Positions 28,552 to 62,671 of a stretch of 64,000 nucleotides of DNA are shown one piece after another. How positions within the stretch are numbered: the first letter of the stretch is position 1; each line of letters begins with the position of its first letter. This DNA comes from Spisula solida (Eukaryota; Mollusca; Bivalvia; Venerida; Mactridae): the NCBI GenBank assembly GCA_947247005.1, contig OX365950.1:49514761-49578760 (forward strand). Direction: 5' to 3'. The notes under the pieces were generated by a model. That model saw only the letters and a program-made list of their open reading frames with translations, ran no database searches and had not been told where the DNA came from. The translations under genes were made by a program, and so were the position numbers.

Positions 28552-31500
28552 TTAGAAAGCTGTAATCATTGTCATGAATAAAGCTAATGTCAACATCGTA
28601 GTTATCACCATAAATACAACAAAACAAATAAAGTCAGAACTTGACACGACATCAGACCAAGTTATTTCATCTTCGTCCTCTTCTACTGTTGTTACTGTAC
28701 TTACACTCTCATTGTCCTGAACAGATTTCACACTAGTGCTATCATTGTCCTCATGTGCATCTTCCACATCGTAGTCATTATTTAAAGTGTCAGTGTTATC
28801 TACACCATTTAAAAGACGCTGAGTATCTAACTGATTGCCCATAAGACCAATTCCAATTCGTTGACTCATTCGAGATACTGGTTGTTGGTTTACATCATTA
28901 CATCTGGATAGAGAGCGGCTGAATGGTCTTTTGTCGGGACTAGTAGAATAGTTTGAAGACAAACCCATCTGTCGACTAATTGGTCTCTGATCTTTAAACG
29001 TTATAGCACCACTGAGTGGCCTGGAATTTTGATCGACTGTATGATAATTAGTTGAAGTAAAACTTAGTTGTCGACTGTTCGGTATCTGATCATCAAGAGT
29101 TATAGAAGTACTGGGGGGTCTTGAACTGGATGGTCTTTTATCAGGAATAACAGGATCGACTACATGGGAATCGTTTGATGGCATAGGCTGTTGATGACTT
29201 ACTGGTGTTTGATCTTCAAACATTAAAGCACTACTGGCTGGTCTGGAGCTGTGACCAACTAGTGGTTGTTGATTTACAGACGATTGATCATCATCACGTC
29301 TGGAAAGGGAACGGCTTAATGACCTTTTATCAGAAATTTCCTGGTCGACTTCATGAGAATTGTTTGAAGTAAAACTTGGCTGGCGACTAATCGGTATCTG
29401 ATCTTCCACCGTTAAAGCATTATTAGGTGGTCTGGAACAGTCACCAACTAATGGTTGTTCGTTTACAGACAATTGACCATCATCACCTCTGGATAACGAA
29501 CGGCTTAATGGCCTTTTGTCAGGAGAATTGTTTGAAGACAAACATGATTGTCGACTTGTTGGTCTCTGATCCGCGAACGTTATACCACTACTGAGTGGCC
29601 TGGAACTCTGATCAACTCGTGGTTGTTGGTTTTCAGACGATTGACCATCTTTCGATAGCGAACGACTTAAAGGCCTTTTATCAGTGCTGCCCTGAATGAC
29701 GTCATGAGAATTGTTTGAAGACAAACGTGACTGGCGACTTATTGGTCTCTGGTCTGTAAACGTAATGCCACTACTTATAGGCCTGAAACTCGCTTCAGAT
29801 TGCATTGTTCCGATGGTGTTTGGCTCTGCGGTGTTTGATCGGCTAGAAATTGCAGAAGACGGTCGCTTCATTCTATATTCAACGGCCTCTGATGTTTGTT
29901 TGATAGACACACTTTCCACGAGAGATCCTGGTCCAGTGTTGTCACCTTCTAAAACAGCTTCGTTAAGATTATTGTCGTCTTCATTTTTCCGAAGTGAACT
30001 TTGACTAGACTGTGTCAATTGTTTGTCAACTGCAATTCCGCTATTTGAACTGATACCATTGGCTTCCATTTCATACCGGTCTGTATTTGTTTCACCTGTT
30101 AAGTGTTTCTGTGGCTCGAGTGAACCGATATCTTCGGATTTAGCATCATCGGAAACATTGTTAGGCGTTTGCTTATCACCAAATGTGCCATTTGTTTCAA
30201 AATCCCCTGTAGGTTCACGCGATTGTGGTAACTGGTATTTGTGACTCTGAATGCTGACCGTCGACTGTGTCCTTTCAACTGCAGATGGAGACACACCATT
30301 TGTATTGTCGTTATTGGGTACATTTGCGTTAGTTTCGTTCGCTTGATTTGATGTATGTTGAGACTCTTTATCCTGCAGAGCTTCAGTACTACGTTGAACT
30401 CGTGTCTGGTCTATATCCGCATTTTCTGCTACATCTACGTCTACCTCTTTAGAGTTATGTACTGTAATAGATCGTTCAATTGCTGTTGGTGTAAGGATGT
30501 CATCTGCGCAACCTCTGAATGAAACTGTTCTAGTGTGAGTTTTGCTAGTTGGCCTAGATGGACGATTGTCTTCCTTCACAGATTCCACTTGCATTATATT
30601 TGACTCCGGTAACTGATCGTCATCGGTATCAGCTGAATCAGTGTCTGTGTCGTCCTCAGACGTATCCTTATGAGAATTTGAACTTCTTGAATCATCGTCA
30701 TCTTGTTTGTCTAACGATTGAGTGGCACCAAGCTTAAAAACCGGCTGTGTTGGTTGACGCACATCGGCATATTCCATAAACAAAGTAGTATCTCTGTCAA
30801 ACATCCGATTGTTTGGTTTATCGTTGCCTAACAGACCTTCAGGTGTTTTCTCGCCAGATAAACTTATTTCATCATCGACAAATGCAACAGATCGCTTTTT
30901 CTTTAGTTTGCCTTTACCAAACGAATGATCGCTATCATCAGCATCATCATCATCAATATCACCGAGAAGCTTTTCTTTGTCAGATTCATTTACAGTGCTG
31001 TCGCTAATACTTTTAGTGTCTTCAGTCTTTTCCGATCGGCATAATTTGAAACTACGCAGCCTTTTTATTGCTCTGACAGTTTTTGCAAGATATGAATATC
31101 TTGGATATCTCCATTCTTTGAGCGTAAGTGTCAATGCTTTTACTTGTAACACACATATGATTAAACCGATCGCACTCAGCACTGTTAGTATCAGAAGGTA
31201 CGCCGCGTACAAAGATATGGAATCTGAATTTTCGGGCATTGATGAATTCGTGATTATTAAGAGAACGACGAAGGATAGGAAAATTGTTATGCTAAATCCT
31301 GTCTTCTCGCCTGATTCCGTTGGAACAACAAATGTAAACACGTTCAGGTAAGCTAACATGACAATCGGGAGCGTCATATAGTAAGACACGTATTGCGGAT
31401 TCCGTTCAAGAGTTAGGAAAAATTCCACAATTTTGTGATTGTTTTTGTCTTCCTGTGCGGTTCTATGAGAAATCAGTCGCCATTCTGCATGATCCTGAAA

Positions 31501-31575
31501 GCTTGGATGAATCTGTAAACCAAGTGCTCCAAGTTCTGTTACTACCTCATTGTCGTCTGTTCCCCACGTGCCAAA
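28552..31575 (-). other. Exon 16: membrane domain and giant cytoplasmic loop
   Basis: 1007 codons. M1 YYMTLPIVMLAYLNVFTFVV, M2 EKTGFSITIFLSFVVLLI, M3 and M4 FICFVVFMVITTMLTLALFM are readable. The loop between M3 and M4 is about 837 residues, against roughly 100-250 in usual nicotinic subunits. It has Asp-rich runs (IDDDDADDSD, DTDTDSADTDDD) and a Ser/Arg/Pro repeat region, and looks disordered. Confidence 0.9.
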
Positions 31576-34500
31576 CTGTAATAGAGAATACATGTATAGT
31601 ATAACCTCACCAGAGAGGCCCTCTATAGAGCAACAACCTCTCTATAACACCTTCAAAATTTCCCTAAGCCTATATTGACAATAAGTTTGACCTCTGTAGA
31701 GTTACAACCTCTAAACAAAGGCCAATATTTACAGCTCCCAAAAGGTGTTGCTCTACAGAGGTTGCACTGTATATTAAAGCTATCGGTTGTATTTCATCTA
31801 TGTATGTGCTCAGTACATTTAAAAACGCACACTACCCTTTTCTCTGAGTTGTTTGACTACCATAAGATTACTTCAGATGCACTTAACTCACCACTATGTT
31901 ACATTTGTACAACATGTATGCTTTATATTATTAACATGTGAAGGTATTTGCATATAATTTGTGTCAGAATACAAAAGAATGCTTTGCAAACAGTGTGTAT
32001 TGCAGCAACTGTTGCGTTTTAAAATATACTGAGTATACAATGTGTTTGTTGCTTATATAATGGACAGAAATATGTTATCAATGCCTATTACGACAGCGTA
32101 TTTGGTACTTCTAATTATATTACATCGAACAGAAGTTCTGCTCGACTATGATGATATCATAATGTTATTCAGAATTACCTACAACTGAGATGGTTTCAGT
32201 ACATGGAAGTACGACGCTAGTCTGGTTCCCGATCTTTACAATCTTCGCAGTAAAGCTTATGTAATGTAAGATTTTGGAACGGGAACCAGAATAAGAAGTA
32301 CACTTGCTAGGATTTTTTGATGAGAAAATTCATTTCCATTTATTATAACTAAACTGTTCCACAAATATTTACCTTTAATACACACGTTTGTCTATCATAC
32401 GGATAATGTGTTAGGTCCACTTTACATACTGACTCCATGATCTGGTAGGGTTTCCATAGACAACTGCCGTCGTAATCAACATCTATAAACATGAACGACG
32501 AACCCATCGCAGTTATCTTCGAGAATCCATTCATTAAAGCTATGTCTGGTTTCCACAAGTCGTTCTGTGGGAGCAGCATCTTCACTATACCCTGACGTTT
32601 TGTGGGGTCCCACGACATACTCTCATCATGCCATGTTACCTCAAACTGTCCGGTCGTTGTCAACTTCTGCTCAACCTACAAACATTTTTAAACAGTATAG
32701 TAGATCTGAGTATAAAATATTTTTTCATTAAGCCTTTTTTAACTATGTTTATATTAGTTGTTGTATGTGTGTGTCCTTTCGCAGGCTTGAAGTCAAGCAC
32801 CAGGCTACTTAGTTTATTTCAAAATAACATGTACTGTTTCTGCTGAGTTTTGCGTTGTGTATTGTCCTTCTTTTGCATGGCTGGCCTTGTGATTGGTTGT
32901 TGAATATTTTCGTCATGCATGTACAACGTAGCAACGTCATGATTATTGTCTACTGCTTCCAAGCATCATTCAAGTGTTATATATATACAGAAGGTTGTGC
33001 AGTGGCCATGTTTAGCAAGTTTATATACAGTTGTAACAACAAACACCGATACCAGTTCCTGTAACGTCTTATCCTTTGCGGCTAAACATGGCCGCTGCAC
33101 AACCTTCTTTCTGATTAGGGTACACTCAGATAATTTAAAACCATGTATAAAATGTTAAATAATGTGTAGTGTTATAACTCAATTTTTGTTTCAATTGATT
33201 TATGAGACAATCTGGCTGATAATAATTCGGTTATTGAAATTAACATTACATGCATGCTACTGTAAAGTCAGTATTTTTTGTGGGTTGAATTTCGTTGATT
33301 TCAACCACGACCTTCATACTCCACGATTGGTCGACATCCCAATTACAGTACAGGATTTTAGTCTTCCATATTGTACAATCTACCAATTTAAGACCCCACA
33401 AAATCGCATTTTTTACAAAAGTTTCGCATTTTTTACAAAAATTAGCATATTTTACAAAAATCCACGAAATTTAATACCCACGAAAATATGTGATTTTAAA
33501 GCATGTTATTCCATATCTACCTCGTCTATACCGTTGATTCCGACAAGAAAGAAGTCCAGCGATGCAGTAATTGCTATACTTATATTCTTAACAGGAAAGT
33601 TCTCACTGGAATAGTTGACCAATACATCTTTAATTGCATTTACAACTGCTTCAACGGGTGGTCCGTTAGTGGTGGTTCGTGGAGATGTAGGTGGTGGTGT
33701 TAATATGTTTTCCTCTGTTCAAAATAAAATAAGATATTTAACAAGCCTTTGAACGTGCGATCGCATGAAAAAGGCGCTATATAAATCTGGTATATTTATT
33801 TTTTATTTATTTATATGGAGTGTCTAGATACAACACGAAGGAACAGAATATGCTTTCCTCTGTCCAAAATATAATAACACATTTAACGAGACAATATATA
33901 GAGTGTCAAGGTGCAAAACAAAGGAACAGAATATGTTTTCCTCTGTTCATTGTATAATATCACATTTAACGAGACAATATATGGGCTATCAAGATGCAAC
34001 AAGCAGGTACAGAATATGTTTTCCTCTGTCCAAAATATAATAACATATTTAACAAGACAATATATGGGATGTTAAGGTGCAACACAAAGGAACAGAATAT
34101 GTTTTCCTCTGTTCAAAGTATAATAACATATTTAACGAGACAACATATGGGGTGTCAAAATGTAACAGGAAGGAACAGAATATGTTTTCCTCTGTTCAAA
34201 GTATAGTCGCGTATTTAATGAGACAACATATGGGCCGTCAAGATGCAAGTATTGGCACCAATACATAAAGGAAATGAATAAACATAAACATGTACAAACA
34301 AAATCGTACAGTTTGCTACAGAAACAACTATGAAGTAATCGCAAGTTATATCCATATTCTAGTATATTTGTCAAACTGGTTGTGCTGTCCTTGAAGATTG
34401 TCTGCCCTTAGTATTAGTAATAATCAGTATTGCGTAGTAGCTTACTCACCAGCATAGTAATCTAACAGAAAGCCACCATAATTAAAAGAGTTGTCGGAGT

Positions 34501-37500
34501 GGAAGTGTAGAAGATATTCAGGTCCTGTAAGGTCCCAACGTTTTTCCCAGTATCCACAAATTTGATCATATACGCCATCTGCTATACATGGACCTGACAT
34601 AAAATATAATGTGCAATGCTGTTTAACTCGCATTGACAAATGATGCCATAATAATGTGTATTCTACAGTCGTATCGATAAAAGTTATGACAAAGGGCTAT
34701 ATGTGGGGAATATCACGGGTACAACCATCGGTAAATCTGGCGTCATTAGCACAAAACAGCTCCAAAATAGCAACACCACTCTACTGTAATTTGTCAAGAA
34801 GTGCTTTTGTCAGTAGCATACTTCATGGCATTTGGCGACCAAACACTACCAAGCAATGGGGCAACTTGTTTGATGTCAATTCATTCCTGTTAACTTTAAA
34901 CATTTAAGAAAAAGCTTGTGATAGGTAGTGTTTACATTTGCATTACTAGTTACGTTTAATACGAATACAAACACAAAGACCAGTTTAACTTTAAAAGCAC
35001 AGCCAAACCAATTAACGTAATACTGTTCCGAGGATCAAAGTAGTACAATGGCTAACGTGTCTATGATGTGTCACTTGTTCGGATGCGTAAATTCAACCAC
35101 ACGTTCTACTCACTTTGATTTAATTACTACGCATTTGAAGTAGTGACCATGCTTTATTCTACGATAAAACACAGGTACAAGGCATTCATTTATTGCTTCT
35201 TAAATAATAGAAGTCAATATTACCATCATATATGATAAGTTTGTCGTACAGACAATCATATGCTGATTCTATGTTGACATCACGAAGTTCTATTACCATT
35301 GTGTAGTATGTAGTGTTGTCATTGGTCAATAACCAGAACAACTCTAGGTTACTGGAATGTATATCAAACAATGTACAGAATCTTATATAAACACACAGTG
35401 ATGTTCCAAGTTTCAGGTAGATAAATTGTCCAGTAGTAAGAGCTACTGACTGCTGACCCGAATGTTGCGGGTTTGATCTAATACCTAATACTAACTTCAG
35501 CAAGTCTTTCGTATGAGATTTTAAAGACCGAGGTCCCGTGTATGACGCTTTACATCAGGCACTTAAAATAACCAGGGATGCTTATTGAACTAGGGCATCT
35601 TCTGTATCATGTACCATTCCACCACACACTAACATGACTAACAGCATCTGAGGGTCTCGCCCATATGGGTCGCCCGTTGGAGAAGATACATAAAAGTCAA
35701 GTATAAAGTGTTGCTAGAAATAGAAGATATTTGTTTAAATGGGTTGTTTACAGATGAGGTTGTGAATGAATTCTTCGATCTGGTAAATTTCTTCCAGTTT
35801 GTATTTGATAACCAGAAAATATACGTTTTAAGTGCCCACATAAAATTAGTGTTTTTGCAGTCTGATTCTAGCACTGTTATGTTAAAGTAGCGATCTGAAT
35901 CATTTCTATTCATTTAACCTCACTTAAAGACCATCTCAAAAACAAGATCAGCATTCAACTATCTATAATCGGTCCAATGGCAACATATATTTCATGTAAA
36001 TATATACACATGTAAATACAGCTATGATTCATGAATATTCATTTACTGTTTTCTTTGAACCATTACATTGCTATTTTAAATGTTGTTTGTTTATGGGTCA
36101 TATTTTGACAGTCAAGTTAGGATAGTGTGAAAGTGACGTAATCATTTATGTGCACACAAAATATTACAACCATTGTCTTGACAGGTAGAGCTATTATAGT
36201 ATGTTAGTTTAGCATTGAAGTTATAGCTGTCTGGATAAGCCTTGATAATTGGTGTAACACCGTAATAGTGGACTCAACAGCTGCGTCACTCTATTTTTAT
36301 CCTGACTGGACTATACTCTGAATAAACGTGTTAACTTCTTTATAAATACTTAACTTACTTTGCATATTTTGTGTAACCATAGTAATAATCATAATAGAAG
36401 CTTGGCGTGGATAGGTTGTTTATGTATGTCTCGTTGTAATGATAATAGTCATACTTTGTGTTGTACGTCACGGAATACTCGTCATAGTTGTCTATACATC
36501 CAGGATAGGCTAAAAATACATACAATTCACATTACGACAAAGCAGGTGTAACCACGCCTTATTTCTTGTCGGACGTTGTTTGTCGAACCTTTACATGTAA
36601 ATCGATTGGATAATGCGAACATGAGCAATTTGTTCAATTGTCTGAAAATACCTGCAATTGAGCTTACGGCAGCGCAGGTGTGACCACGCCTTATGTCTTG
36701 TAGGACGTTGTTTGACGGACGTTTTCATGTAAATCGATTGGATTAAGCAAACATGAGCATTTTTTTCAATGTTTTACCACCACAGTTTAAATATATGAGA
36801 TGGTTTGATTGGGTAAGACAGTTTATCAAGCAGTACTTTGTAAACTTACTTTCACTGAAGCAGGAATGATTTATATACGTACATATCTGAGAAACATACA
36901 AAAAGGTTTTCCCGCAAAGCCCTAGATGGCGTCAATGTTTTGCGTAAGTGTAATACAGTGAAGTTCCGCTAATAAGACCAGTCAAAAAGGTGGTCTTAAT
37001 AGCTAATCGGTCTTATAAGCGGACCTTAAACTGGCAAAAAACTGCATTATTTCAAAATAATCAAAGTGGTCTTATTAGCGGAACTTTACTGTAGTTGTTA
37101 TGTAGGCATATCCTAGGTTGTATTATGAATTTATCATTTGAAGTTCAAAATCATTTCAGGAATATGAATTAAAAACTTACTGTTTAATTTTGCGGTTACA
37201 ATAAGACGGAAACCATTATAGTTCAATGCGTAATCCGAGGAAAATATGAGCAGCATGTATCGGTCGGTGCTTCGGTAACTATATCCAGGGACATAAATTC
37301 CACACACACGATTCAACTGTCTGTCTGTAGTCGTGTTATGTCCTGAAATTGGTGATATACATGTTTATAGTATTGTTTATATACAACGATTTTTACAGGG
37401 GAGTGGGGGGAACCCCAGTGTTCGAATTACATACATGTATGAATTTCAAAAACAGACTTTCAGTACTTTGATTTTTTATAGTGACGTCATGGATTTACCA

Positions 37501-40500
37501 AAAGTTTAATGCGAATTTGATAACCCTAAATTTACAATAAAGATGCTCTTTACAATGCAGTTTCTATAATTTAGAGCAATAGTTACCCCATTTGAGAAGA
37601 GACATAGTTATTGTTTGTGTGGGGCATTGTTTAGACTTCCGTTTGGGTCATCGCTTACTTTCTCTGAGAAAGAATATTCACAGTGCTCTACTTGATTGGG
37701 TAACTAAGATGGTCAAAAGTCAAAGTGCGCCAATTTATTATTAGTTTATACGTTCACTTGGCGATGTACTAATATGAGTAGTAAAGTGTATCCTGTATCT
37801 GCCTTACTTTGCGTGGACACGCATGGTTGAACGCTGCTATATTGGATCAAAATCGTACACTCGATCTAAAGGTCATGGTCGTGACCGAATTTAGATCCAA
37901 GATGGCGGTGTTCGACAAGGGTACACTATACTTCTTATATGTTTATACCAAATAAATATGTTGCCTTCGCTATGGCTGCCCGCGGCACCAAGTCAACGGC
38001 ATACTCATTGATCATGGGGGTAACGTAAAATCGGCTGAGCGGACGCAAGAATAAAAGAAGACACTCAACCAGGTTTTAACAATTTAATCGTATATGCATT
38101 TTAAATCTACAGTAAGAAGTGATTGACGACCATACATGCTGAGATAAAATGAATTTAAAAGCTTCGTCGTACTAAAGAATGAGATTAAATCCATAACTTA
38201 CCGTCATATATGATAAGATAATCCCATGAACAATAATAATTATACTCGATTCCGTACACATCTTGGTCAAAGGATATTTCTACAGAATAATTTTCCGGTG
38301 CTGTTATAAACCACATGCACTCTGTGTTGCTGAAAATAAACTTTATAATAGAAAACACGGCTTACAATGTGCGATGCTTAATATGGCATGGTATTCAATA
38401 TTGATCTTATTTAATTAGAGAATAAAAATAGCCAATCATAACGCCTGTTACTGACCAAGGGTTTAATATGGTGTGATCTGATTGGTTGTCCTTATCCTTA
38501 AGTCAAGTAACATCAATATTGAATACCACCCCTGGAAATATCACGGTTTCGATGCCCTTCTGTGTCACTGCTTAATTTTTCTAAGCAAGAATAACCTACT
38601 ATACTCCTCTTAATCCATGTGAGCGTGTATGGTTGATGTGAATGAGTATCTGAGAAGTTCAAATGTCAATGTGATATGGCTGCAATCGACGCCGTGTGTA
38701 ACAGCCGACTTGCGACTCAATGGTCGACGGGGTGAATATACAGTCGGCTTAACGGGTGGTGTCCGCCTGTTTCAGGTTACAAAACTGACTTGAAATCGAA
38801 ACTTTACTTTAGCCATTGGGTTGAATAGATATTCTAACACAACCAGCGCTTTTAGCTATATACACATAGAGGAAACCAACGGGTGCATGGATTACTGTTA
38901 AAACACAGCTACGGCAAATAACTTAATAGCCTTCCGAGGAAGAAGATAGTGCAAATGCGAAATATTGTCTATGTTAGAATCTATTATAAAGCACAGGTAC
39001 ATAATTAGTATTCATTATTTCTTAATAAAGTCAAAATAAATTGATTTGACTGTACCAAAAAAAGTGAAATTTCTGATTTAGAATAAGATTTAGAAAGCCG
39101 TAAAGCTGTTTGATAAATCGCTGACTTAGAATAACAAGGTCGTAAGCACAAAATCAATATTTTGAGAAAACAAGAGAAAAACCTGTCTGAACAATACTCT
39201 TTACGTATGGAATAACAAGGTTTTTCAACAAATGTTTGATCAACATTACCATTTCAGATTTTCATGAAAATAGGCTCTTATAAGGCTGTAAGGAGTACTT
39301 CCGACCTTCTTATTCTAAGCCAACGAAATCTTACCTCGGATAATCATTGTCTCCTCCGAAGTTTGGAGACTCTAGTTGGTCGTATTTGGGATATATCACT
39401 GCTGTTATGTTATACCCCGTCTCGTTACATGTCGTATGAATATTCTCCGGACCTAGAATGTCATGGAAACAAAGTTATATTGCAATCTGGTATTTGAATT
39501 AATGTAGCATGTTATTGTCGCTAAATTCACATCTAGTAAGTACTCTGTGGTCGTAAAAACTTAAAGATGCTTAGCCAATGAATACATGTTTTGCAAACGA
39601 TTGACCAATAGCCATCGAGTACACAATATTGGTAAGTTTATCTATGTATTATGATTTCAGTGTAGCAATACCACGTGACTTTTGGCTACAGTTACAAGAA
39701 GAAATTTGTAAACATTGGAAAATAAAAAAGCCATAAGTATTTTATTTCTTCATCGATTTCTATTAAATATACCCCACGCTAAGGGGAAAATTATTTGCTT
39801 TCCATGAAATATAAGATCTTTTTCAGCAGCTTTAGCGATTTATCCATTACCCTGTGAAACCTACACGTTCCGCGATTTCACAGGGTAATGGACAAAACGG
39901 CACATCCGCTGAAAAATATTTTATATTTCATGGAAAGCAAATAATGTTCCCCTTAGCGTGGCGTAGATTTCATAGAAATCGATGAAGAAATTAAATGCTT
40001 ATGGCTACATTTGTGTTCCAATGTTTACAAATTTCTACTTGGAACTGTAGTCAAAAACCACGTGGTATTGCTACACTGGATTTGAATAAATGCATTACGA
40101 TGGCCAATCATTTTGCTGTTGTGTAGCAGTATTTCATTGTGTTTGCCGTTTGGGCAGCATGTAGTTCTCTTCTGTTGATCTATTTGGCCGTAACTAAGTT
40201 TTGGAACTTGTGGCTCGACCCTTTTACCCATGTATATAAAATGTATTTATAGATGTATTTGTATGACAAATATTGTATATTTTGTGGGTAATAAAATATG
40301 TTTAAACTAAACTATTTAGCAAATGTGCAAAGTCTCCCAAACTGTTGAAACATATTCTTCAGCAAGCTGTAACATTGTACCAATGTTGTAGTTCATATGA
40401 GTTAACTCCGGGTTGACAGCTGCTAAATTTAAGGTTGATATTTTGACAAGAGGGGGTCATTTTACACGGAACAAGCCGATTAATAGTTTACCTAATTATA

Positions 40501-43500
40501 GATGTTATGTAAAACATGTCTGGCTATACACTATATAAGCCAAGTCAATTTGTGTTAAGATTAGTTGGAATTGGAGCGCCGAGTCATGAGTGGAGCTCGC
40601 AGTCAGACCGGAGCGTATGTATTGAATAAAACGTTGAAACTGCTATACTGTTAAGTGATTACTTTAGCCATATTACGCTACAAGGCTAACGTTTGGTGAT
40701 CGTGACCAGCACACGCGAGTACGAACCTTATACGATCAGGAATGAGGTGAGTGAATGTTTGTAAAGTTCTATTTTGCTTTTGTCGAGAAGATAATAAAAT
40801 TTAAATTATGGCAAATGGTTTAAAAGCTGTAAGTACCCAGGGTGTCGCAAGGGTGATCTTAGAATATGATGGAAATTCAAATCAATATAAATCATGGATT
40901 AAATGGATAGAAAATGTGATACGTTATTTATTTAGACTACATTAGGCTAATAAATGAATATAAGTTTAAACAAATTTAAGCTGAAAAATTGAAAATGTCA
41001 AAATGTCAAAATCGTATTTAAGTAAATGCGTAATTGTAAATAGTAAATTGTCAAGTTGTCAATAAGTTAACTTGCATAAACATCACGTTGCAAATTGTAA
41101 ATATTCATGCAGTGGTGATATTATATAACAATTTTAAACTGTATATACCTGTATATAGTGAGTATTAAATGTTGTAATATTCAATAATGTTTAGATGATT
41201 ATTCATTAAGGAGAGTGGGTGTGAATTATTGTTTTGACGTTATTTCTACAAATAGATATTATGCGAACATAATTATTTGTAAGATTTTTTGAGTATATTT
41301 TCGAGATATTAAGTATTATAAATAGAGGTCGAAAGCAAATAAGTTGCATATGAATAAGTTTTATTCAATATAAACGACTATTATAATATTGGAGTTTAGA
41401 TACGAGGGTCGGTATGTGTTATTGTTGTGTTGAGATAAATGTTATGAGAACATAATTAGTAGTAGAGACATATTATATAAGAAGTCGAAGGCCAGTTTTT
41501 ATTAGAAATCAGAAGGCATATGAATGTATTTTGAAACGACTGTCTATAATATCAGAAGTTGAGGAAGATCGGTTAGTTGAGGAAGATCGGTTACTTTGGA
41601 GTCTTTGTTCTATTGTTATTTTTAACGATATTGTTACGCTAAGTCGATAGCCGGTATTTTTTTAGGAAATCAGAAGGCACATATATAATTATGATTTTAT
41701 TCATAAAACGACTCGTTTAATATCAGAAAAGATAGCAATAATATCATTGTAAGGATAATCGGTTTATGTTGTAAATATTGTTTAAAATATTTTTATGAAA
41801 AGTATATAAAAACGAAATTATTCGTAGAAACATTTGACTATAATTATACATATGTTATGAATACAATATTTGAATATGATGAAATCGGTAAAAAGTCATT
41901 AGCATGTTAGGCAATCAGCAACATAGGAATATTTGTTATTCAATAAAACGACTGTATTATCCGATTGTATCAATATTGTTATAGAAACGGAGAGTCGATT
42001 ATGTTGTAATGGTTATTAACCGATATTTTTAGATTTAATATTAAAGTTACACTTCACTTATATTACGTCATGTACGCAAAATAATGAATAATGCAATTCG
42101 TTAAGTTAGAGACATTCAATGATTATATAACGTTAGGATATTAGTTTGAGAACTCAAGTACAAGCAAAGTAGTAGTAAGTTAATTAATTGATTGTAAGCG
42201 TATCAAAGCATAAGAAGGAATTGAAAATTTCCAATGAAAAAACTAATAAATAAATCAAAATAGTTACTTTGATAGAAGTCCATGACAAGCCTGCAACATG
42301 TATTTCCATTATGAGTAGTTATTATGATCACCATTGCCGCACTGGGTACCTTAGCAATTTTATTTTGTTAAATAAAAAATATGTGTATTAAATTAAAAAC
42401 ACTTGATCAAGCAATAGGAAACTACCATTCATACCACTATATACCTGCCCAGACCAACGGTGAAAACACATAGGTTCGGGGAATAAGACGGATGGGAGAT
42501 GAAATCAAAAATACCTTTTGAGAATTGTCTGCATGAGCAATACAATTACAAAACCATGTCATATATGATGTAATACTCCAAACGATGCGAGACCATCAAC
42601 AATCCCAAGTCCAGTATTCAAGTATATGCCTACCAGAAGATGTGTGCTTAAAGAGGAAACAATACTTCAAGGCCGATTGCACAGGGCATCATTCCGGGTA
42701 GAAGTCTAAAACTTCACGGATGGCTCGGTGTATTACCGACAGATCCAGATAGATCCAGGAATTATCAGAATATCGAATAATAGTATATCAACTATGTCAA
42801 CGAGTATAAGGGGATTACTTCATCGGTCGAGTGGGAATAATTTGATGATCCATGAAATTAACATGGATATTATAGTAATAGTTTCAACCATGGCAACTAT
42901 TGCACGTCGACGCTGGATGGCTATTCAACGAGTTTCAACGTAGAGAAGTGGAAATGATGTGTCAACAGCTATACGATGATTGTGGAAATAGTACAACGGC
43001 AAGTAAATAAGATGCTGATGGACGCCAAAGTTCAACTGGAATCCGAAGAAGTCATTGCCGATGCCATATATTAAGTATCTTTGCATGTTTTGGGTTGGTT
43101 GTGTTATTGGTTGTGGTAAAAATAACAAATAATAATAGTTTCATACAGTACTTTTAAGGATGTTCATTCAAAGTAGAAATAGTAATGTTAAATTTTGTTG
43201 TATTATTAGTAAGTGTACCTAATGTTAATTATATGTCAAATGGGTACGTTGTCGTAAGATTTAAATTTTAATTTGAGGACTTTGCCATAAAATGCTAGTA
43301 TATGTACTACAAAAATAGAAATTACTTCCATTATCAATATTAGTGAAGATGTAACTGGGTTATGATATGTAAAAAGATGTTTTTTCGTGTTGTTGTAACT
43401 AGGTGTTGGGTTAAAATTAACAAATTTAATTATTGGGTGTTGGGCAATGTTGAATTAGTTGTATATGTTTATGTTGCAGTTGTTTATGTTTTATGAAGTT

Positions 43501-46500
43501 GAGTTAAGATTAAGTTCATGGAGGTTTTATAATATGAATAGAGATGTTATGCATGTCAGAGGTTTAATATAGTAAGATGACATTAGAAACCTATCAATTA
43601 TGAAGTAATTTGCAACTTATAAGTACAAATACGTACATTTCATATATTATTTCTTATGAGTAAGTTGTCACTGCATATATTGAAATAGAAGATAGAACTA
43701 TAAATATATATTAATCATGGCAATACTATACATTCCAGGAAATTGAGACACTGCGGCTGATAAACACGGACTCACTTGTAACTGGAACTGGAATACGTCA
43801 TAAAACAACAAACAGTCGTTAAAAACTTCCAGTGTTCAGAGACGTTCCGTATAAATTTTGTATCAGTAAAAGCCGAAATTTTAAGAAAATTCAAGTGTTA
43901 TATTGTGTTAATGTCATGTGTGATTATGTTATTCAGGAAAACGATACTATAGACACTATCTAGCAAGATTTTGATGTATCTGAATTGTTATATCAAAAAA
44001 ATTTATTATCTTGATCATCCAGAGATATGTATGTGTTTTATGTGATCAAGGTTGTCGAAGGTGACAATTACATGGATTAGTAATTCATTTCAATTGTCAT
44101 CTCCGCTATAAGGTGTAAACAATAATCGGGAGTTCTGGAGTAACTAATTATAAGTATATATTTGGGGAAATTAAAATTGGTATTAAGTAATTGCAAGTAT
44201 AGTAGTTTTTTTTAATTATTTTTTTTGGTAAGATGATAAGGTGTAACATTGTACCAATGTTGTAGTTCATATGAGTTAACTCCGGGTTGACAGCTGCTAA
44301 ATTTAAGGTTGATATTTTGACAAGAGGGGGTCATTTTACACGGAACAAGCCGATTAATAGTTTACCTAATTATAGATGTTATGTAAAACATGTCTGGCTA
44401 TACACTATATAAGCCAAGTCAATTTGTGTTAAGATTAGTTGGAATTGGAGCGCCGAGTCATGAGTGGAGCTCGCAGTCAGACCGGAGCGTATGTATTGAA
44501 TAAAACGTTGAAACTGCTATACTGTTAAGTGATTACTTTAGCCATATTACGCTACAAAGCCACTCATAACTTTAGTCCAAGGGATGGACTTTTTTCAAAT
44601 GTCTACTTCCGTCCGTGTATCAAAAAGAGTATATTAAGTCAGACAGGGAAGGCAGCACTCAACTTAACCAAGCCAAGTCTTCATGGATATATCATGTAAC
44701 CACGCTGGGTACCACATATTCAAAGAACCTCCAGCGTAACAAGAATTGTGGCCACATTACACGAGTGCGTCCACTAAAGCACAGAAAAAAACAGTGAAAT
44801 GCCCATGGTTCCGTTACTGTCAGCTGTACTTTGAGGTTATTAAGTCAGAAGAAATTCGGCTTACGGGATGAGAGTAGTCTCGCATTACATACTGAGGACA
44901 GACAACAATGCTACGGTTGAATTATGAACAAGTGTGGGGACAAAAATGAATGGCAGTCATGGTGTCGATGCACGACTACTTACCAGTCAGTCGATATGTT
45001 AACAGGAATCCAAAATAGTCGGTAGCATCATCATAAACGATCCAGTTGATGTAAGCTGTTGTCATTGTTGTGAGTTGATCATCGAATTCATAAACTTGAG
45101 ATGTTTCACATATTCTGTCTAACAAATTGGCTGTACCATTCCCTGGGACACAGAAACAATAAATTATTAACGTCGCGAAAATAGGTTACACTGTAATATC
45201 AACATAGAACTAATTGGCGCATATATACTATTAATACACAAGGTAATTACCAGTTAGTCTTTAAACATCGATAAAGATATAAGTATGCGCGATTGAGAAA
45301 TACATCCCTCTTACATAATAAAAATTATTATGTCTTCGTCTGACGGGATTATCTCCGCACCAAAAAGTGTGAGATAGAAACATTCGGGTGCCATGAGCAA
45401 GATTAACGTTCGTTTGAGTGACGTCAGGGTATGAATTTCATCGTTCTTGTTGATTTCCAATACAAGCAAACACACAATGACTTTCTATAGCATTAGTAAC
45501 TAATATACATGTATTGCTTTGTTCTATAGTAGACACAAAATGACTTATGTGCATACGTAGCACAGGAAAAAAATGATAGGCTTGCCAAAATGACCAGGGT
45601 TTCATGTAACCTCATGGAGAAAATGTTACATACTATATATGCGTTCTTATGTACTCGGTGTATTTAGACATATTCGCTACTGAGACCATCTGTTTGACCG
45701 AACAACACAATCAAACATAATCAATTTAATGTTTACCATTATACATGCTTAACTGAGCATCTGCCCCACACTGCATATCTAACATCTTGATTGAAAACAA
45801 AATCAAATCGCTAGCCTGAAAACTCCAGTAACATGATTGACTCCTGAAAAAATATATAAATACTTGTGTTAGTTTATAATCGACCAAAATTTATCGCTGG
45901 CTTAGAATTAGAAGGTCGTACTTACGACCTTATCAGACCTATACATATTTGAAATATGCAACGCAAGGCGCCTCAAATGAAATTCGGCACAGGTCATGTT
46001 GATCATACTGAAGTTGCAAAAGCTTGGTTTCCAAGAATAGTTTTCAGACATTTTTTTTTGTTTTCTCGATATAGCGATTTTGTCCTTATGACCTTCTCAT
46101 TCTAAGCCAGCGATATATTTATCAACTGCAATTAATAAGGTTAACGTGAAATGACCAAAGAGTTCTTGAATACATTACTGCATTACATTTACAACACAAA
46201 ATAAATATTTATTATTAATTTTTATTGTGTGTGATGAAGTGTTTTCTTTTTGCAAAGCTAAAACTGTTAACAAATATTTATTTTTCAACAAAAAATAGAA
46301 AACAGTTTCCGCGAATTTTCATATCAAAGACCTTAAATGATTTGATAGTACATTTGTATTTACAACATTTTATTGGCTAATTGACATACCCAAGGTAGGG
46401 GTCCGGTAAATTCGGTGACATCAACACTTGAGTTGACGCGGAAACTTGAATCGTATCTCCACACGCATACTGAGTCGCTGCAAATAGTAAACATGGCCAC

Positions 46501-49500
46501 TTAAACTAACATCTTCACCAGAACCAGATGAACAATTGAATTTCAGATACATTTTGTAATTTGTTGTTGTCACATAATGCATTTCATTAAAGTAAATTTA
46601 AAGTAAATATTCGTTGAACAGATATCTAATAAAAGTACGTATTACTTCGAAAACAAAACGTTACGACACCACATATGAAATAAAACAGTCGTCAGATGAT
46701 GACATACATGTATAAAATCAAGAATTTAGTTTACCAATAAACTAGTAATTAACTATGGGTTGTAAAACATTCAAAGTATTACACATGTTTGCCTAATCCA
46801 ATGGATTCGCTTGCTAATCTTCGACAAACAAATGGGCGGAGCAATCATTTTACTCTAATAAAAAGCCTTTATTTAATGTGGATAATATAATTTATATTAT
46901 GGCTCAACTGTCCAGAGTCTGGCAAATTAGACTTTTGTTGGGGTGTTAATGTGATAAGTGTAGAAATGTGATAGATAAGTGTAGAAATGTGATAGATAAG
47001 TGTAGAAATGTATAAAGAACTTACACGAATCGTTGCTAAAATACAGGATCTGGAACCCAACGAATTCTGTGCTACCATCAGATGTGAAAGCAAAACGCAT
47101 TTCTCTTTCACTGCTAACCAAGACGTTAAAAGTATTACGGTTTGTCTTATCCATCGTCGCAATCAGAGTTTCAGAAACACCGACTGAAAAAAAATGTTTC
47201 TGTATATTTATAAAAACGTGTATGTCACAGACAATATACAATGTACTATCAAAACTTGACAATTTAGCTTCATAAAAAGCTAGAAACTGGTTCTAACTGT
47301 TCATGTTTACCAGGAGAGGTGTAGACATGTGGTATGCAATATTGATCGTACTTGACGTAAGGAAAACCAATTAGATCACACTATATTAAACTCTTGGTCA
47401 GTAACAGGCGATGTGATTGTCTATCCTTATTCTCCAATTAAGTAAGATCAATATTGAATACCACCCGTGATCTTTAAACTGTGCAACAGGCATCAAAGAG
47501 TGTCAGTTTTTCTCTTCAATTTGATTTTTTTTTTGGAGAAAATATTACCAGTTGGGTAATGCAGTAAATTAATATTAACCAACTCGACGAAAACACTTTT
47601 GGTGACACTAGTACATATGCAAGGGGAAGTAACTGCTGTTGATGGTTGGCATCTTACAAGTCATTCTTTGAACTTTTGGTTCATTAAAGATAGCTGCGAT
47701 GGTAATATACGAGTATCCTAACTGCTTGTAAAAGGCAGCTTTTCATTGGCTTTCTTTTTTAACCAATCGCGCATTCTGTTAGAATTTAAATAAATGAATC
47801 TTAAATCTGTCTGATTGTTGCCTGACTTCGGTTTGGTGCCACGATATGGACAGAAAGAGACAGAAGCTGGAAACCTGCTTTTGAAAGCGTTAGGTGTCTC
47901 AAAATATATATATATAATGTAAAACCATGTCGTAATACTGTCGCGCTGGAGCCAGCCATCTTTAATCCCGGTTAATGTTTATTTTATGGCATTCTACGAG
48001 TTAATTGTAACGACTTACAACATTCCATAGGGAACAGTGAATAAACACTACTTACTAAGACATTTCAGCAACAGCCTTTTTCAAAATTTCCAATACATAA
48101 ATCTTTGTTTGCAAAAACTATTGCCGAAACGTCAATAATAAAGTAGTATTATATTATTTTAAAATAAATTGGACGTACAAGAAGTTTTAACAACTTTTCT
48201 CTAGTTTACTTACTTCCATCATAAACCAGTAGTTGGTCATTGGTTGCCTCTGTGAAAAACTCTTCAATGTTGACAATCACTTTGTCATTCAATCCCGGGG
48301 CTGTTACAATCCACTCACAATCTGAGTTTCTGAAGAAAGAAAAACATTTTGGAGGTGCAAAAGGTTTAGTTTACTAGGATTGCTGTATTAAGAGGGTTTA
48401 ATAAAACAATCGTTTAATTTGGTTTTAAAGTAGATTCGCAACCAATTATGCAGTTATATATACAGCGGTTGTTTCACCTAACCAGTTCTCATGGACTGTA
48501 TCCTTACCAGTACTAACTTTCCATTCCAAAAGGAATGAAGTAACAACATAGCCAAAATGATTTGTGTGGGCGTCAAAGGGACCTGACCCAAATGACCGGT
48601 TTAACATGTAGCCAAAAAGAGAAAAGTTCGAATGTTTCTTTTTCCACTCAGTAAAGAGATACTAGTAAGTGACTTACGCTGGGTAATCAGCCGGATAGTT
48701 TGGAGATGTGAAGTACTGTGCCTGGGAGGATGCTGTTAGAGCAAGTGGTCTGGTAGCAACATCACATTGTCCTACAACTGTAGAAATATGCTAACATGTT
48801 ATATTATCGTAAACGTAGGTAATACTCTAGTTGTGTGTCATTAATTTGATGTTACGTCAACGTCTTTCTAATGCACTAGTCAGTTGAAACCACACCCCAA
48901 ACCCCGGGGAAGGTCAGGGATAGCGGGGGCTGTCCCGTGGTATTGCTTTGTGAGTGTGTGAGTGCGGGGCCTTTGTTTCGCACCAAATAGCGGGAAAACT
49001 TAACATTGACTATACCCGAGAGGGTAGGGAAATTTGCGGGGGTTTTACTATCTGTATGACCCTGGGGCACCGATTTTGCCAGGGGTTTGAAGAAGCAAAA
49101 GTTAAATCCGCACCATTTACCGGGGTTGGCTAAGGTCGTGGTTAAAATTGACTGGTACATAACATATATTAATACTAGCATTATGCTTGTGAAATCTACA
49201 TTAACAAAAAGCAATTGCTGTCGCTTAATTGCTTGATAATTGGTGTTGATGTTGCCAAGCAAACCAGTCAGCGAACTACTGTTTAAATCGAGAAAAAATG
49301 AGTGGAAATGTAACAATCCTTTTGTTGCATGCTTTAAATTCTTCATATTACTAATTATTATTTCATCAGGCCTTTTACGTGCAGGTGAATCCACTCCACA
49401 GTATTCGCTAAATCGCTGGCTTAGAATTAGAAGGTCGTTAGTACAAAATCAATATTTTGAGAAAAGAAAAAAAATCTAGCGTAGGATGACTGAGGGAATT

Positions 49501-49802
49501 GGGTATGCTTAACCGAGTTTCGTTAATTTTTAACTACGCGTTCGCAAGACAATTGCAAATAATACCATACATGTACTATGTTTCTATTACGTTTAAGTAC
49601 GTGCAAGTACAAGTTAAGAAATAACCCTTAAATTAGATAATAACTTATTGATATCTACAGCGTTTGAAACATAATCTAGGTAAGTCCCTTGATATAACAA
49701 ATTGTCAACGAAAACGACCACTGTTGTTAAAATGAAACTCTTACCACACTGTGCATGGTACAATACTGACAATACCATCACGTATAAGATGTGCAAATCC
49801 AT
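28552..49802 (-). CDS. CUB-domain Cys-loop ligand-gated channel subunit, 16 exons
   Basis: Predicted 1710-residue membrane protein. Exons in transcript order: 49802-49745, 48771-48678, 48329-48214, 47183-47025, 46477-46390, 45843-45737, 45142-44984, 39452-39335, 38329-38202, 37342-37181, 36509-36359, 35351-35224, 34593-34450, 33714-33521, 32675-32373, 31575-28552. All have GT/AG ends and the phases join without a break or stop. Order: signal peptide (1-19), four CUB domains (20-538), Pro/Thr linker, Cys-loop receptor ligand-binding domain (about 555-764), M1-M3 (about 765-847), loop of about 837 residues, M4 (about 1685-1710). Pore sequence has Glu at -1' and Leu at 9', the pattern of cation channels. 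It lacks the vicinal Cys pair of alpha subunits. The start was chosen at 49802 because it begins the hydrophobic leader; an in-frame ATG at 49847 would add 15 residues. Chimeric gene prediction without transcript proof, but the exon chain is self-consistent. Confidence 0.85.
28850..29795 (-). repeat. Six imperfect repeats in the cytoplasmic loop
   Basis: Six units of about 33-62 residues with the shared core SRPLSSGITFxDQRPISRQ, often followed by SSNNS, DKRPLSRSLSR and NQQPLVG. Units differ in length and by many substitutions, so the expansion is not recent. RPLSRSLSR is a repeated basic phosphorylation-type motif. Confidence 0.85.
31598..31775. mobile_element. Degenerate inverted-repeat element in intron 15
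   Basis: The right end GTGCAACCTCTGTAGAGCAA (inverse) and the left CTCTATAGAGCAACAACCTC share the CAACCTCT/TAGAGCAAC pattern common in Tc1/mariner-type MITEs. Boundaries are approximate. Confidence 0.4.
32373..33714 (-). other. Linker and ligand-binding domain (exons 14-15)
   Basis: Exon 14 starts with a Pro/Thr linker (TPPPTSPRTTTNGPP) and the first helix and strands (VLVNYSSENFPVKN, VGINGIDE). Exon 15 has KLTTTGQFEVTWHDE, LLPQNDLWKPDIAL (loop A region) and the Cys-loop, Cys686 to Cys700 with exactly 13 residues between, including YPYDRQTC. The loop B Trp follows at 707 in exon 16. Confidence 0.9.
32989..33108. repeat. Hairpin, 28-bp arms
   Basis: AGAAGGTTGTGCAGTGGCCA (to 33016) recurs inverted at 33081-33108 with one mismatch, with a 64-base loop. 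It lies in intron 14 of the CUB-receptor gene. Confidence 0.7.
33705..34210 (-). repeat. 82-bp tandem repeat carrying copies of the exon 14 acceptor
   Basis: About six units with period 82-84 bases. On the minus strand each contains TTTGRACAG followed by AGGAAAACATATT, which is the 3' splice site and first bases of exon 14. The real site is at 33714/33715; copies lie near 33857, 33938, 34020, 34103 and 34185, upstream in intron 13. Confidence 0.75.
34450..36509 (-). other. CUB domain 4 (exons 11-13)
   Basis: Residues 397-538. Motifs LSTPSFYYDYYYGY, LELFWLLTNDNT, YDCLYDKLIIYDG and LHFHSDNSFNYGGFLLDYYA. The Cys that normally precedes Trp is replaced (LELFW), and an extra Cys pair (PCIADGVYDQIC) is present. 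It is joined in frame to the receptor domain. Confidence 0.85.
36541..36770. repeat. Tandem duplication, about 132-bp period
   Basis: Two copies of about 98 bases beginning GCAGGTGTRACCACGCCTTA, at 36541-36640 and 36673-36770, about 85% alike, in intron 10. Confidence 0.7.
36956..37091. mobile_element. Tigger/pogo-like MITE, 136 bp
   Basis: Termini CAGTGAAGTTCCGCTAATAA and the inverse CAGTAAAGTTCCGCTAATAA continue to GACCA (25 bases, one mismatch), flanked by TA at 36954-36955 and 37092-37093. In intron 10. Confidence 0.8.
38389..38530. mobile_element. 143-bp MITE family, copy A
   Basis: Short element with inverted ends GGTATTCAATATTGATCTTA; nearly the same sequence occurs at 47330-47465 (inverted) and 54841-54983. 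In intron 8. Confidence 0.75.
39118..39326. mobile_element. TCGCTGG MITE family, copy A, next to a splice donor
   Basis: Ends TCGCTGACTTAGAATAACAA and the inverse TCGTTGGCTTAGAATAAGAA. Its right end stops 8 bases inside intron 8, immediately after the donor GTAAGATT of exon 8. Other copies: 45894-46113, 49413-49480 (partial), 61131-61332. Confidence 0.75.
39658..40078. mobile_element. Near-palindromic 421-bp element with GATTT target duplication
   Basis: Two arms of about 190-200 bases are inverted copies, starting CAGTGTAGCAATACCACGTG, with a loop of about 20 bases. GATTT flanks both ends (39653-39657 and 40079-40083). No coding. A 5-base target with CAGTG ends does not fit the common superfamilies neatly. 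In intron 7. Confidence 0.75.
40368..40682 (+). repeat. 5' LTR, 315 bp
   Basis: Contains a TATA-like CTATATAAG at 40531-40539 and AATAAA at 40625-40630, so U3, R and U5 regions can be placed. Confidence 0.9.
44242..44556 (+). repeat. 3' LTR, 315 bp
   Basis: No difference from the 5' LTR seen by eye over 315 bases. Preceded by a short purine-rich stretch (AAGATGATAAGG) as the polypurine tract candidate. Confidence 0.9.
44984..46477 (-). other. CUB domain 2 (exons 5-7)
   Basis: Residues 143-261. Motifs VLMSPNLPDPYLG, SCYWSFQA, MQCGADAQLSMYNG and DYFGFLLTYRL; all four CUB cysteines are present. Phase pattern is the same as CUB 1. Confidence 0.85.
45894..46113. mobile_element. TCGCTGG MITE family, copy B
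   Basis: 220-bp copy with ends TCGCTGGCTTAGAATTAGAA and the inverse TCGCTGGCTTAGAATGAGAA, flanked by TA. It lies 50 bases upstream of the exon 6 acceptor. Confidence 0.8.
46958..47012. repeat. Short 21-bp tandem repeat
   Basis: About 2.5 copies of GTGTAGAAATGTGATAGATA, in intron 4 next to the exon 4 donor at 47024. Confidence 0.7.
47025..48771 (-). other. CUB domain 1 (exons 2-4)
   Basis: Residues 20-143. Shows FTSPNYPADYP, SDCEWIVTAP, DQLLVYDG and FAFTSDGSTEFVGFQILY, the CUB order of strands. It keeps the first Cys pair (QC and DCEW) but lacks the second one. Intron phases are 1, 2, 1, 1. Confidence 0.85.
47330..47465. mobile_element. 143-bp MITE family, copy B
   Basis: Inverted relative to copies A and C, ending GATCAATATTGAATACCACC. 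In intron 3 of the CUB-receptor gene. Confidence 0.7.
49413..49480. mobile_element. TCGCTGG MITE family, partial copy
   Basis: Only the left part (TCGCTGGCTTAGAATTAGAA onward) is present, in intron 1. Confidence 0.6.
49745..49802 (-). other. Exon 1: signal peptide
   Basis: Encodes MDLHILYVMVLSVLYHAQC plus one base, then the donor GTAAGA. A short hydrophobic leader ending near Ala-Gln-Cys-Gly, as expected of a secreted or type I N-terminus. Confidence 0.75.
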
Positions 49803-61600: not shown

Positions 61601-62671
61601 TACTGTGAAAATGTGTAGTACCTGTGGTATAAGTAGTGAACTAATACCGGACAATTTGGATACTGGCCATTGCATGTTACTGTCCGTCCACTTGATGCTA
61701 AACAGAATAGTTGTGGTCAGCTTTTGTTGAACCTGTAAGTAAATTACATACGCCTGTTGTTGTGCTGATTTCAATGGCCGAATAAGTACGAACAAAAACA
61801 CTACAGCCAAATCAAAGTCAAATCAAAGGAATGAATACAGTAGTGCACAGACAATCCAAAGCCACACAGAAACGACGGCAGCGCCTAGCCATCCACGCAA
61901 GAGTCAGACATAGAACGAACAATCCACATCCCCAAAAAATATATTTCAAGCAAGCCTATATACTCACTCCGCAATGAATGACACACTGTGGACTTCGAAT
62001 TTTGTGCATAATTAGCCATAAAGGGATGTAATTATAAATGATAACTACACTGAAGTGAAGTACGGGGCGACTTTTTACAGCCGCCACACAGCACTTAACA
62101 CCTGCCGTAGTGATAAGTAAATACAGTAGTGCACCGGTACTTTAGTAATAAATATAAGCAACAACTATGGGCATTTCAGACACTGGATCATCGACAGATT
62201 TTTTTTATTTTAACGAAACTAATAAAGTCCGACGATATGGTTAAATTGTATTCTTTTCAGTATTCCTGGGATTTCAGGTTAGTCTCATGGAGAAGAAAGA
62301 TCAAGCCTCGAGGATGTTGGTACGTATGTTAGTTAAACATGATATGTAGAACAATGTTACATGTTGTTAGTGAAAACTAAACCTGAATTGTCAGATTACA
62401 TTGTCATTTTAATGCATCCGAAGACAATATGACAGCTAGCTATTTTTTTGTTCCTGCGAAATAAACTAACTATTTATAATTACCTCGTCAAATCCATTAA
62501 TCCCCACCAAAGAAACATCTACACTTGTATCAACGGGTATTGATAAATTTCTAGCGGGTAGATTACCAATACTGTAATTTGTCAGCACGTCATTAATGAG
62601 GCCAATCTCTGCAGTTACTGGAGGTCCAAGTGTTGTCGTGGTAGTAGTTGGAGGGGCAGTTCCACCAACAC
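58661..62671 (-). CDS. Cys-loop ligand-gated channel subunit, 5' part not resolved
   Basis: Four exons in transcript order: 62671-62484, 61732-61622, 60577-60386 and 59431-58661, giving about 420 residues to the TGA stop. Exon 1 seen here starts in phase 1 with the linker APPTTTTTTLGPP and VLTNYSIGNLPARN. The next exons give KLTTTILFSIKWTDSN, NDVWKPDIALLN and the Cys-loop with 13 residues between cysteines (YPYDTQTC). The last exon has M1-M3, a short acidic loop (NDDDEEDDDVGDDD) and M4. Pore: Glu at -1', Leu at 9', so probably cation-selective; no vicinal Cys pair. It is the paralogue of the CUB-receptor gene on the same strand. The phase-1 acceptor means an upstream exon exists, beyond the window or unrecognised in 62672-64000. 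Confidence 0.88.
59615..59905. repeat. 49-bp tandem repeat in the last intron of the second receptor gene
   Basis: Six copies of a 49-base unit containing ATTCAATGATTCAGTTACCT and GGGTTATTGGAAACACAT, almost identical; the last has TTTTAG for TTCCAG. Confidence 0.93.
60176..60285. repeat. Dispersed 100-bp repeat, copy 1
   Basis: Shares GGCAGCACTCAACTTAACCA-type sequence and CACAATTACACGAC with 60655-60760; a shorter related piece is at about 44645-44700. Confidence 0.6.
60655..60760. repeat. Dispersed 100-bp repeat, copy 2
   Basis: Same order of segments as 60176-60285 at about 80% identity. Both flank exon 60386-60577 of the second receptor gene. Confidence 0.6.
61131..61332. mobile_element. 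TCGCTGG MITE family, diverged copy
   Basis: Ends CTGGCTTATAATAAGAAAGT and the inverse of ACCTTCTCATTCTACGCCAG; in an intron of the second receptor gene. Confidence 0.6.

Follow-up and report, generated by a model that had tools for sequence, protein, structure and literature searches.

Within a 64,000-nucleotide stretch of the genome of the clam Spisula solida (assembly GCA_947247005.1, contig OX365950.1, positions 49,514,761 to 49,578,760 of the forward strand; hereafter the window, in whose coordinates all positions are given), we find a minus-strand gene that fuses four CUB domains to a Cys-loop receptor channel subunit. At the level of the gene, this chimera is well supported by sequence analysis. 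An original prediction, made from the bare letters of the window, had proposed such a fusion, and the proposal is now backed by a continuous open frame, by matching intron phases, by Pfam domain matches, by relatives annotated in four species, and by a second fused gene adjoining the first.

Rebuilt from the sequence, the gene comprises 16 minus-strand exons between 49802 and 28552 that join into a single open frame of 1710 codons plus a stop. All of the exons lie at the positions named in the prediction, and all 15 introns have a GT donor and an AG acceptor. The product would run from a leader through four CUB domains and a Pro/Thr linker into a Cys-loop ligand-binding domain and four membrane segments. 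Every CUB domain is built from three exons with phases 1-2, 2-1, and 1-1, a pattern that occurs four times in a row. The joint on which the fusion depends, between exons 13 and 14 (34450/33714), was found exactly where it had been placed and is in phase 1, as is the exon 1/2 junction (49745/48771). Exon 14 contains no in-frame Met codon, and the channel half therefore requires an upstream exon. The exons, with the basis of each assignment in brackets where one is recorded, are as follows:

49745..49802, minus strand: exon 1, start codon and leader peptide MDLHILYVMVLSVLYHAQC (rebuilt gene)
48678..48771, minus strand: exon 2, first exon of CUB1, phase 1-2 (rebuilt gene)
48214..48329, minus strand: exon 3, second exon of CUB1, phase 2-1 (rebuilt gene)
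47025..47183, minus strand: exon 4, third exon of CUB1, phase 1-1 (CUB1 alone, 4.4e-14)
46390..46477, minus strand: exon 5, first exon of CUB2 (rebuilt gene)
45737..45843, minus strand: exon 6, second exon of CUB2 (rebuilt gene)
44984..45142, minus strand: exon 7, third exon of CUB2 (CUB2 alone, 1.8e-07)
39335..39452, minus strand: exon 8, first exon of CUB3 (rebuilt gene)
38202..38329, minus strand: exon 9, second exon of CUB3, with Glu and Asp of a Ca2+-type triad (gene model and triad alignment)
37181..37342, minus strand: exon 10, third exon of CUB3, with the last Asp of the triad (CUB3 alone, 1.5e-17)
36359..36509, minus strand: exon 11, first exon of CUB4, first CUB Cys lost (gene model and alignment)
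35224..35351, minus strand: exon 12, second exon of CUB4 (rebuilt gene)
34450..34593, minus strand: exon 13, third exon of CUB4, ending in phase 1 (CUB4 alone, 4.5e-08)
33521..33714, minus strand: exon 14, the joint, with the Pro/Thr linker and the start of the ligand-binding domain (gene model and alignment of relatives)
32373..32675, minus strand: exon 15, ligand-binding domain as far as the Cys-loop, C686-x13-C700 (gene model)
28552..31575, minus strand: exon 16, remainder of the ligand-binding domain, M1-M3, an RxxS/T-rich cytoplasmic loop some 800 residues long, M4, and stop

CUB domains are extracellular modules that typically grip other proteins. When Pfam was run on residues 1-923 of the spliced product, all three of the expected families were matched: CUB in four stretches (2.3e-46), Neur_chan_LBD at residues 565-763 (4.2e-38; 131.4 bits against a cut-off of 26), and Neur_chan_memb (3.5e-13; 50.8 bits), the last of which was also recovered from exon 16 run alone (7.3e-08). 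Scored singly, CUB1 to CUB4 gave 53.2, 31.9, 64.3, and 33.8 bits, all above the CUB cut-off of 21.4. Hydrophobic segments at 769-787, 795-813, 830-848, and 1685-1703 fit M1-M4, and a fifth stretch over the hydrophobicity threshold (582-600) falls within the ligand-binding domain. A hydrophobic leader ending in QC is present in the relatives P0002, P0003, P0006, and P0007, described below, as well. The cytoplasmic loop between M3 and M4 carries 30 RxxS/T motifs, compared with 12.9 (SD 3.1) in 500 shuffles, an excess that suggests regulation of the long loop by kinases. By eye, the loop (28700-30800, in exon 16) contains imperfect repeats around RPLSRSLS-like stretches.

The same kind of domain order is annotated in other clams. 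We searched about 5.8 billion proteins with the sequence across the joint, using a word-based choice of candidates that can miss distant relatives, and 16 proteins were returned. According to precomputed Pfam annotation, 8 of the 16 (P0001-P0008) carry CUB, ligand-binding, and membrane domains: two from Mactra antiquata, three from Mercenaria mercenaria, one from Ruditapes philippinarum, and two from Mya arenaria. Of the Mactra antiquata pair, one aligns along the entire stretch at 76% identity and the other along half of it at 52%, and P0009-P0011 from the same search showed the membrane region only. Two later protein searches scored only the candidates sharing the most words; the second search overall added Mya P0017 (CUB, ligand-binding domain, and membrane region) and P0019 (CUB and ligand-binding domain only), and the third returned no further fused protein among its top word-sharing candidates. 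P0019, apparently a fragmentary second annotation of P0017, is excluded from all counts. A Pfam rescan covered 6 of the 10 fused-type relatives and two CUB-less comparison proteins. The word-based protein search returned no fused protein from outside these clams, and a scan of bacterial and archaeal contigs gave 78 pattern matches, none of which was confirmed as a relative. In the databases, proteins of this layout go by names such as 'uncharacterized', 'ACH2-like', and 'neuronal acetylcholine receptor subunit alpha-5-like'. A Cys-loop receptor of Mytilus edulis (P0013) has about 290 Ser/Thr-rich residues ahead of its ligand-binding domain and no CUB.

At the joint itself, YYAEENILTPPPTSPRTTTNGPPVEAVVN of the Spisula product corresponds to YYAEANILTPPPTTPRTTTNGPPVEAVVN in Mactra antiquata, the linker being conserved nearly letter for letter, and the other aligned relatives have a related linker at the same place. 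Because the joint recurs in relatives, the fusion exceeds what chance would give.

A second fusion stands next door. Upstream, also on the minus strand, the next channel gene (from 58661) lies in tandem with the first and combines two CUBs with a short cytoplasmic loop. The following of its exons lie within the window:

62484..62671, minus strand: linker and start of the ligand-binding domain, entered in phase 1
61622..61732, minus strand: ligand-binding domain exon
60386..60577, minus strand: ligand-binding domain exon with the Cys-loop
58661..59431, minus strand: end of the ligand-binding domain, M1-M4, short loop, and stop

Its linker resembles that of exon 14, and the linker exon at 62671 likewise enters in phase 1. 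The CUB exons lie beyond the end of the window, at 81706-69969 in window coordinates (40 kb past the end were read). Nine exons are open over 634 codons including the stop, with phases 2-1, 1-1, 1-2, 2-1, 1-1, and then 1-0, and encode CUB, ligand-binding, and membrane domains. The first CUB lacks its first exon, which was not found in the 22 kb scanned upstream; a single motif match in those 22 kb was not accepted as a CUB exon. This gene is most closely related to Mactra P0008, a protein of 647 residues; the last CUB exon, present in the Spisula gene, is missing from the P0008 annotation. No further fused copies were detected by tblastn in 16 more 10-kb stretches around the pair, and none turned up in the 20 kb flanking the window at its opposite end.

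These observations bear on the most basic objection, namely that two neighboring genes have been wrongly joined. The fusion is known in this clam from genomic sequence alone, and the intron at the joint is a repeat-rich 735 bases, both of which leave room for such an error. However, phases fit at every joint, the protein-level joint is the same in Mactra with a related linker in the other aligned relatives, and a second, independent gene is fused in the same manner. On the strength of the annotated relatives, the conserved joint, and the second fused gene, we reject it as highly improbable.

For comparison across the family we used 11 fused subunits: the window gene, its neighbor, P0001-P0008, and P0017. 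A FastTree phylogeny of the ligand-binding and M1-M3 part also included the five CUB-less proteins P0013, P0020, P0021, P0023, and P0025, with P0015 and P0016 left out, and eight paralogues from this genome whose open frames extend no more than 83 residues upstream of the matched part. The 11 fused subunits formed one clade with support of 0.991, a value to be read with the composition of the set in mind, as the eight paralogues are top Pfam matches rather than nearest relatives and a closer CUB-less paralogue could split the clade. The long form (four CUBs where complete) and the short form (two CUBs) are sisters in this tree, and Mercenaria P0004 and Ruditapes P0005 are long-form relatives with two CUBs as annotated. 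In a tree of the CUB domains, printed without supports, the membrane-nearest CUB, which is CUB4 in the long form and the second CUB in the short form, groups together across both, and the first CUB of the short form falls near CUB1 and not near CUB3. The clade support points to a single fusion event that would later have spread among the clams. The 932-Mb assembly yielded 150 ligand-binding-domain matches scored among 549 candidates, and the fused pair is thus a small part of a large receptor expansion.

The channel part has the expected features of a Cys-loop subunit. Both cysteines of the Cys-loop (C-x13-C; C686 and C700 in the window protein) are present in 11/11 fused subunits, and at the M2 positions that we take to be -1' and 9' all 11 have Glu and Leu, respectively. 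Glu at -1', just before M2, is a mark of cation-selective Cys-loop channels; because of these two residues in all 11, a cation channel is predicted. The best matches of the channel part among solved structures are acetylcholine receptor chains (best 1.4e-38). A fold model was made of the Ruditapes relative P0005, in place of the window product, with 12 sequences; its mean pLDDT is 49.6, and within the ligand-binding domain and M1-M3 the ten-residue blocks score 52-88. In a Foldseek comparison, the best 50 of 1761 rows are nicotinic receptor entries (best E 9.3e-28, alpha-7). The model supports a channel fold and is silent on the placement of the CUB domains.

The acetylcholine site is largely eroded. 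At the positions that we presume to be loops A-D, the vicinal Cys pair of loop C is absent from all 11 fused subunits, loop A (M/L/I) and loop D (Q/L) are non-aromatic in every one of them, and Tyr is missing from the loop C stretch of 10 of the 11 (P0004 has a single Tyr where the window protein has Phe); the loop-B Trp is kept throughout. The fused subunits thus resemble nicotinic-type Cys-loop receptors in having a whole ligand-binding domain, C-x13-C, M1-M4, the loop-B Trp, and the -1' Glu, and differ from them in the two to four CUBs in front and in the missing vicinal Cys pair and loop A and D aromatics; the window gene differs further in its cytoplasmic loop of roughly 800 residues. We do not name these subunits alpha-type acetylcholine receptors, a label poorly supported when most of the binding box is missing, and the database names that call members acetylcholine receptor subunits are put in question.

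Loss of most of this box in 11/11 fused subunits makes another trigger plausible, and one could suppose that the CUB domains are a sensor, such that an outside protein or glycan (from food, a microbe, a gamete, or a neighbor) opens the pore directly, in a chemosensory or immune-type role and not a synaptic one. Precedents exist: the portion of PMC10338036 drawn on here records such losses in orphan and chemotactile receptors and describes the chemotactile receptors of octopus and squid as nicotinic-like, acetylcholine-insensitive, and without the signature motifs; sections of PMC6896357 describe a large expansion of these receptors in molluscs, with other additional domains in some of them. 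However, neither the Cys pair nor the loop A aromatic is present in any of the CUB-less proteins P0013, P0020, P0021, and P0023. Because CUB-less relatives have also lost it, most of the box loss is not a mark of the fusion, and for the same reason we do not use it as evidence for gating by CUBs. This objection is itself qualified, since an aromatic is present at loop D in three of these four but in none of the fused subunits; in the loop C stretch, too, three of the four have one Tyr or more. CUB4 is joined to the ligand-binding domain through a Pro/Thr linker, presumably a flexible one, which gives no hint of tight mechanical coupling. Overall, we consider a sensor of this kind rather unlikely.

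Turning to the CUB part, three acidic residues and a Tyr are common to Ca2+-binding CUBs, and in PCPE-1 the acidic residues that hold Ca2+ also bind lysines of the partner (both from the portion of PMC6372009 drawn on here). Our scoring covers the three acidic residues (E/D/D) only. The triad is present in CUB3, or in the first CUB of the short form, in 11/11 subunits, and in the membrane-proximal CUB4 in 10/11, the exception being the cut annotation P0008; overall, 24 of 34 CUB rows have it. In the window protein E/D/D occurs in CUB1, CUB3, and CUB4 and not in CUB2, marking a putative Ca2+-binding subset. The first CUB cysteine is lost from CUB4 in 11/11 fused subunits. Against solved chains, CUB3 matches cubilin (2.6e-31) and PCPE-1 (1.2e-24), with weaker matches to Neto2 (1e-14) and neuropilins, and CUB4 gives a weak match to cubilin (4e-06).

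Elsewhere in animals, CUB ectodomains act on ionotropic receptors as separate proteins. As related in parts of PMC9083331, LEV-10 (five CUBs) clusters acetylcholine receptors in worm muscle, its ectodomain being sufficient, and SOL-1 (four CUBs, the number found here) slows desensitization of GLR-1. With these two and with Neto1/2 the clam subunits share CUB ectodomains set beside an ionotropic receptor (PMC9083331, in part). LEV-10, SOL-1, and the Netos, however, are channel-less type I membrane proteins that act in trans, whereas here the CUBs are on the channel subunit itself. The likeness to LEV-10 and SOL-1 is one of domain type and not of compared sequence; the Neto2 match is that of the solved chain to CUB3 noted above.

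By analogy with these auxiliaries, we tentatively favor a reading, to which we give somewhat less than an even chance, in which the CUB domains form an integral arm that anchors and gates a predicted cation-selective pentameric channel. The leader would send the protein to the cell surface, where five subunits, all of them fused or mixed with CUB-less ones, would form the pore. The Ca2+-type CUBs, in particular the two nearest the membrane, would hold on to a basic residue of a partner protein outside the cell and in this way would cluster the channel or alter its gating, as LEV-10 and SOL-1 do in trans, here within one polypeptide. If all five subunits were fused long forms, up to twenty CUB domains could stand above one pore.

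Several observations weigh against this anchoring and gating arm. The closest solved CUBs are those of cubilin and PCPE-1, and the proposed role rests on analogy with LEV-10 and SOL-1. The triad is found in CUB1 in 3/6 proteins (the exceptions are two Mya proteins and the cut P0001), and no CUB2 has it in full (0/6). The number of CUBs varies from two to four among relatives as annotated, so four are not essential. The P0005 model is too weak overall to speak to the arrangement of CUBs and channel. An alternative is that the CUB domains bind no ligand and serve assembly or protection only, pairing subunits, perhaps those of the tandem genes in mixed pentamers, or shielding against proteases. 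For such a role speak the adjacency of a two-CUB and a four-CUB gene, the absence of a full triad from CUB2, and 11 N-glycosylation sequons in residues 1-765. It is countered by CUB3 (in the short form, the first CUB) and CUB4, whose triads persist in every complete row and suggest a binding role, and we judge it quite unlikely.

A bolder form of the anchoring and gating proposal would hold that, once in clam evolution, a Ca2+-gripped extracellular protein ligand replaced acetylcholine, giving a protein-gated or protein-anchored channel with up to twenty CUBs and an animal parallel, the first to be described, to the bacterial channels with N-terminal domains; we regard this as doubtful. The bacterial case for comparison is DeCLIC, also a pentameric-channel subunit with extra beta-rich N-terminal lobes before its ligand-binding domain and modulated by Ca2+, as set out in portions of PMC9897478. 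It differs in being bacterial and in that its two lobes are called jelly-roll there, so that they are set beside CUB by description (PMC9897478, in part). Extra N-terminal domains are described as a prokaryotic trait in passages of PMC9897478 and PMC549065, and the latter, a 2004 survey, treats the known Cys-loop architecture as stereotypic and lists bacterial fusions in the portion drawn on here.

Other animal receptors with added modules are more distant. Oyster and pearl oyster nicotinic receptors resemble the clam fusions in having acquired extra domains, such as dynamin and GAIN, within bivalve expansions (PMC6896357, in part), and differ in that the word CUB is absent from the main text of that survey. 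In the annotation of Branchiostoma lanceolatum P0025, too, extracellular modules precede the channel of an animal Cys-loop receptor. These are different ones, however (PAN, C-type lectin, LDLa, kringle, and sushi, in 1391 residues), its channel is distant (23% identity to P0008), and its gene model is unchecked; it is perhaps an independent animal case of a similar fusion of modules and channel.

The original prediction knew of no CUB domain fused to a pentameric channel. That claim stands for the literature, in that no report of a CUB fused to a Cys-loop channel appeared among the matches listed for open-licence PMC papers, and falls for the databases, where such proteins are already annotated. 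The conserved CUB–channel fusion of clams thus appears to be undescribed as far as our searches reach. A conserved family of this kind contradicts the rule of one stereotyped animal Cys-loop layout. It also places in one polypeptide a CUB auxiliary and an ionotropic receptor that are separate in worms and vertebrates, and because both parts are in one polypeptide, direct action of the CUBs on the channel is testable by simple deletion. The clam subunits would further provide an animal partner to DeCLIC for the question of how added domains tune pentameric channels.

The intron at the joint contains a tandem repeat. At 33812-34248 on the minus strand, intron 13 holds an 83-base tandem array of 5.3 copies. 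The 19-base exon-14 acceptor and start occurs six times in the window at up to two mismatches (expected 0), five of these in the array, which forms a row of decoy acceptors, each running into a stop after 17-47 codons. Such an arrangement could slow removal of the intron, and it is conceivable that retention of intron 13, or early poly(A) addition, yields a separate soluble four-CUB protein with the channel as the second product of the locus. Read-through beyond exon 13 would add YYAGE and then stop, and three AATAAA strings, which may be chance, lie in the AT-rich intron. Against a separate soluble protein, exon 14 has no Met and the channel half needs an upstream exon, fused products are predicted in the gene sets of four species, and the second gene has the same layout; such a product would in any case add an isoform and leave the fusion in place. 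We consider it improbable. A channel-only isoform beginning at exon 14 was rejected as well on the lack of a Met there, although no search was made for a leader exon inside the 735-base intron 13.

Several further features of the window complete its description. In intron 7, 300-base direct repeats that are 100% identical (40364-40663 and 44238-44537, 3874 bases apart) probably mark the two ends of an LTR-type element that inserted recently. Nested inverted repeats of 131 and 69 bases at 39658-40078, about 90% complementary, are perhaps a foldback or MITE-like element. Long tandem repeats at 657-4390, 7645-8579, and 19930-21896, open in several frames on both strands, are likely minisatellites. 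Rfam gave no match within the window. Probable retrotransposon remnants occupy 6083-7945 on the minus strand; a frame there matches reverse transcriptase (6662-7132, 2.1e-11), and the two other frames had no Pfam match. On the plus strand, a long repetitive frame, (GVDEVLNAATER)n, occupies 22757-24523; a stop at 23978-23980 interrupts it, after which the frame continues to a coiled-coil-like end, and its Pfam matches resemble repeat noise. Also on the plus strand, a cytochrome P450 exon is recognizable at 8820-9236 (1.9e-10).

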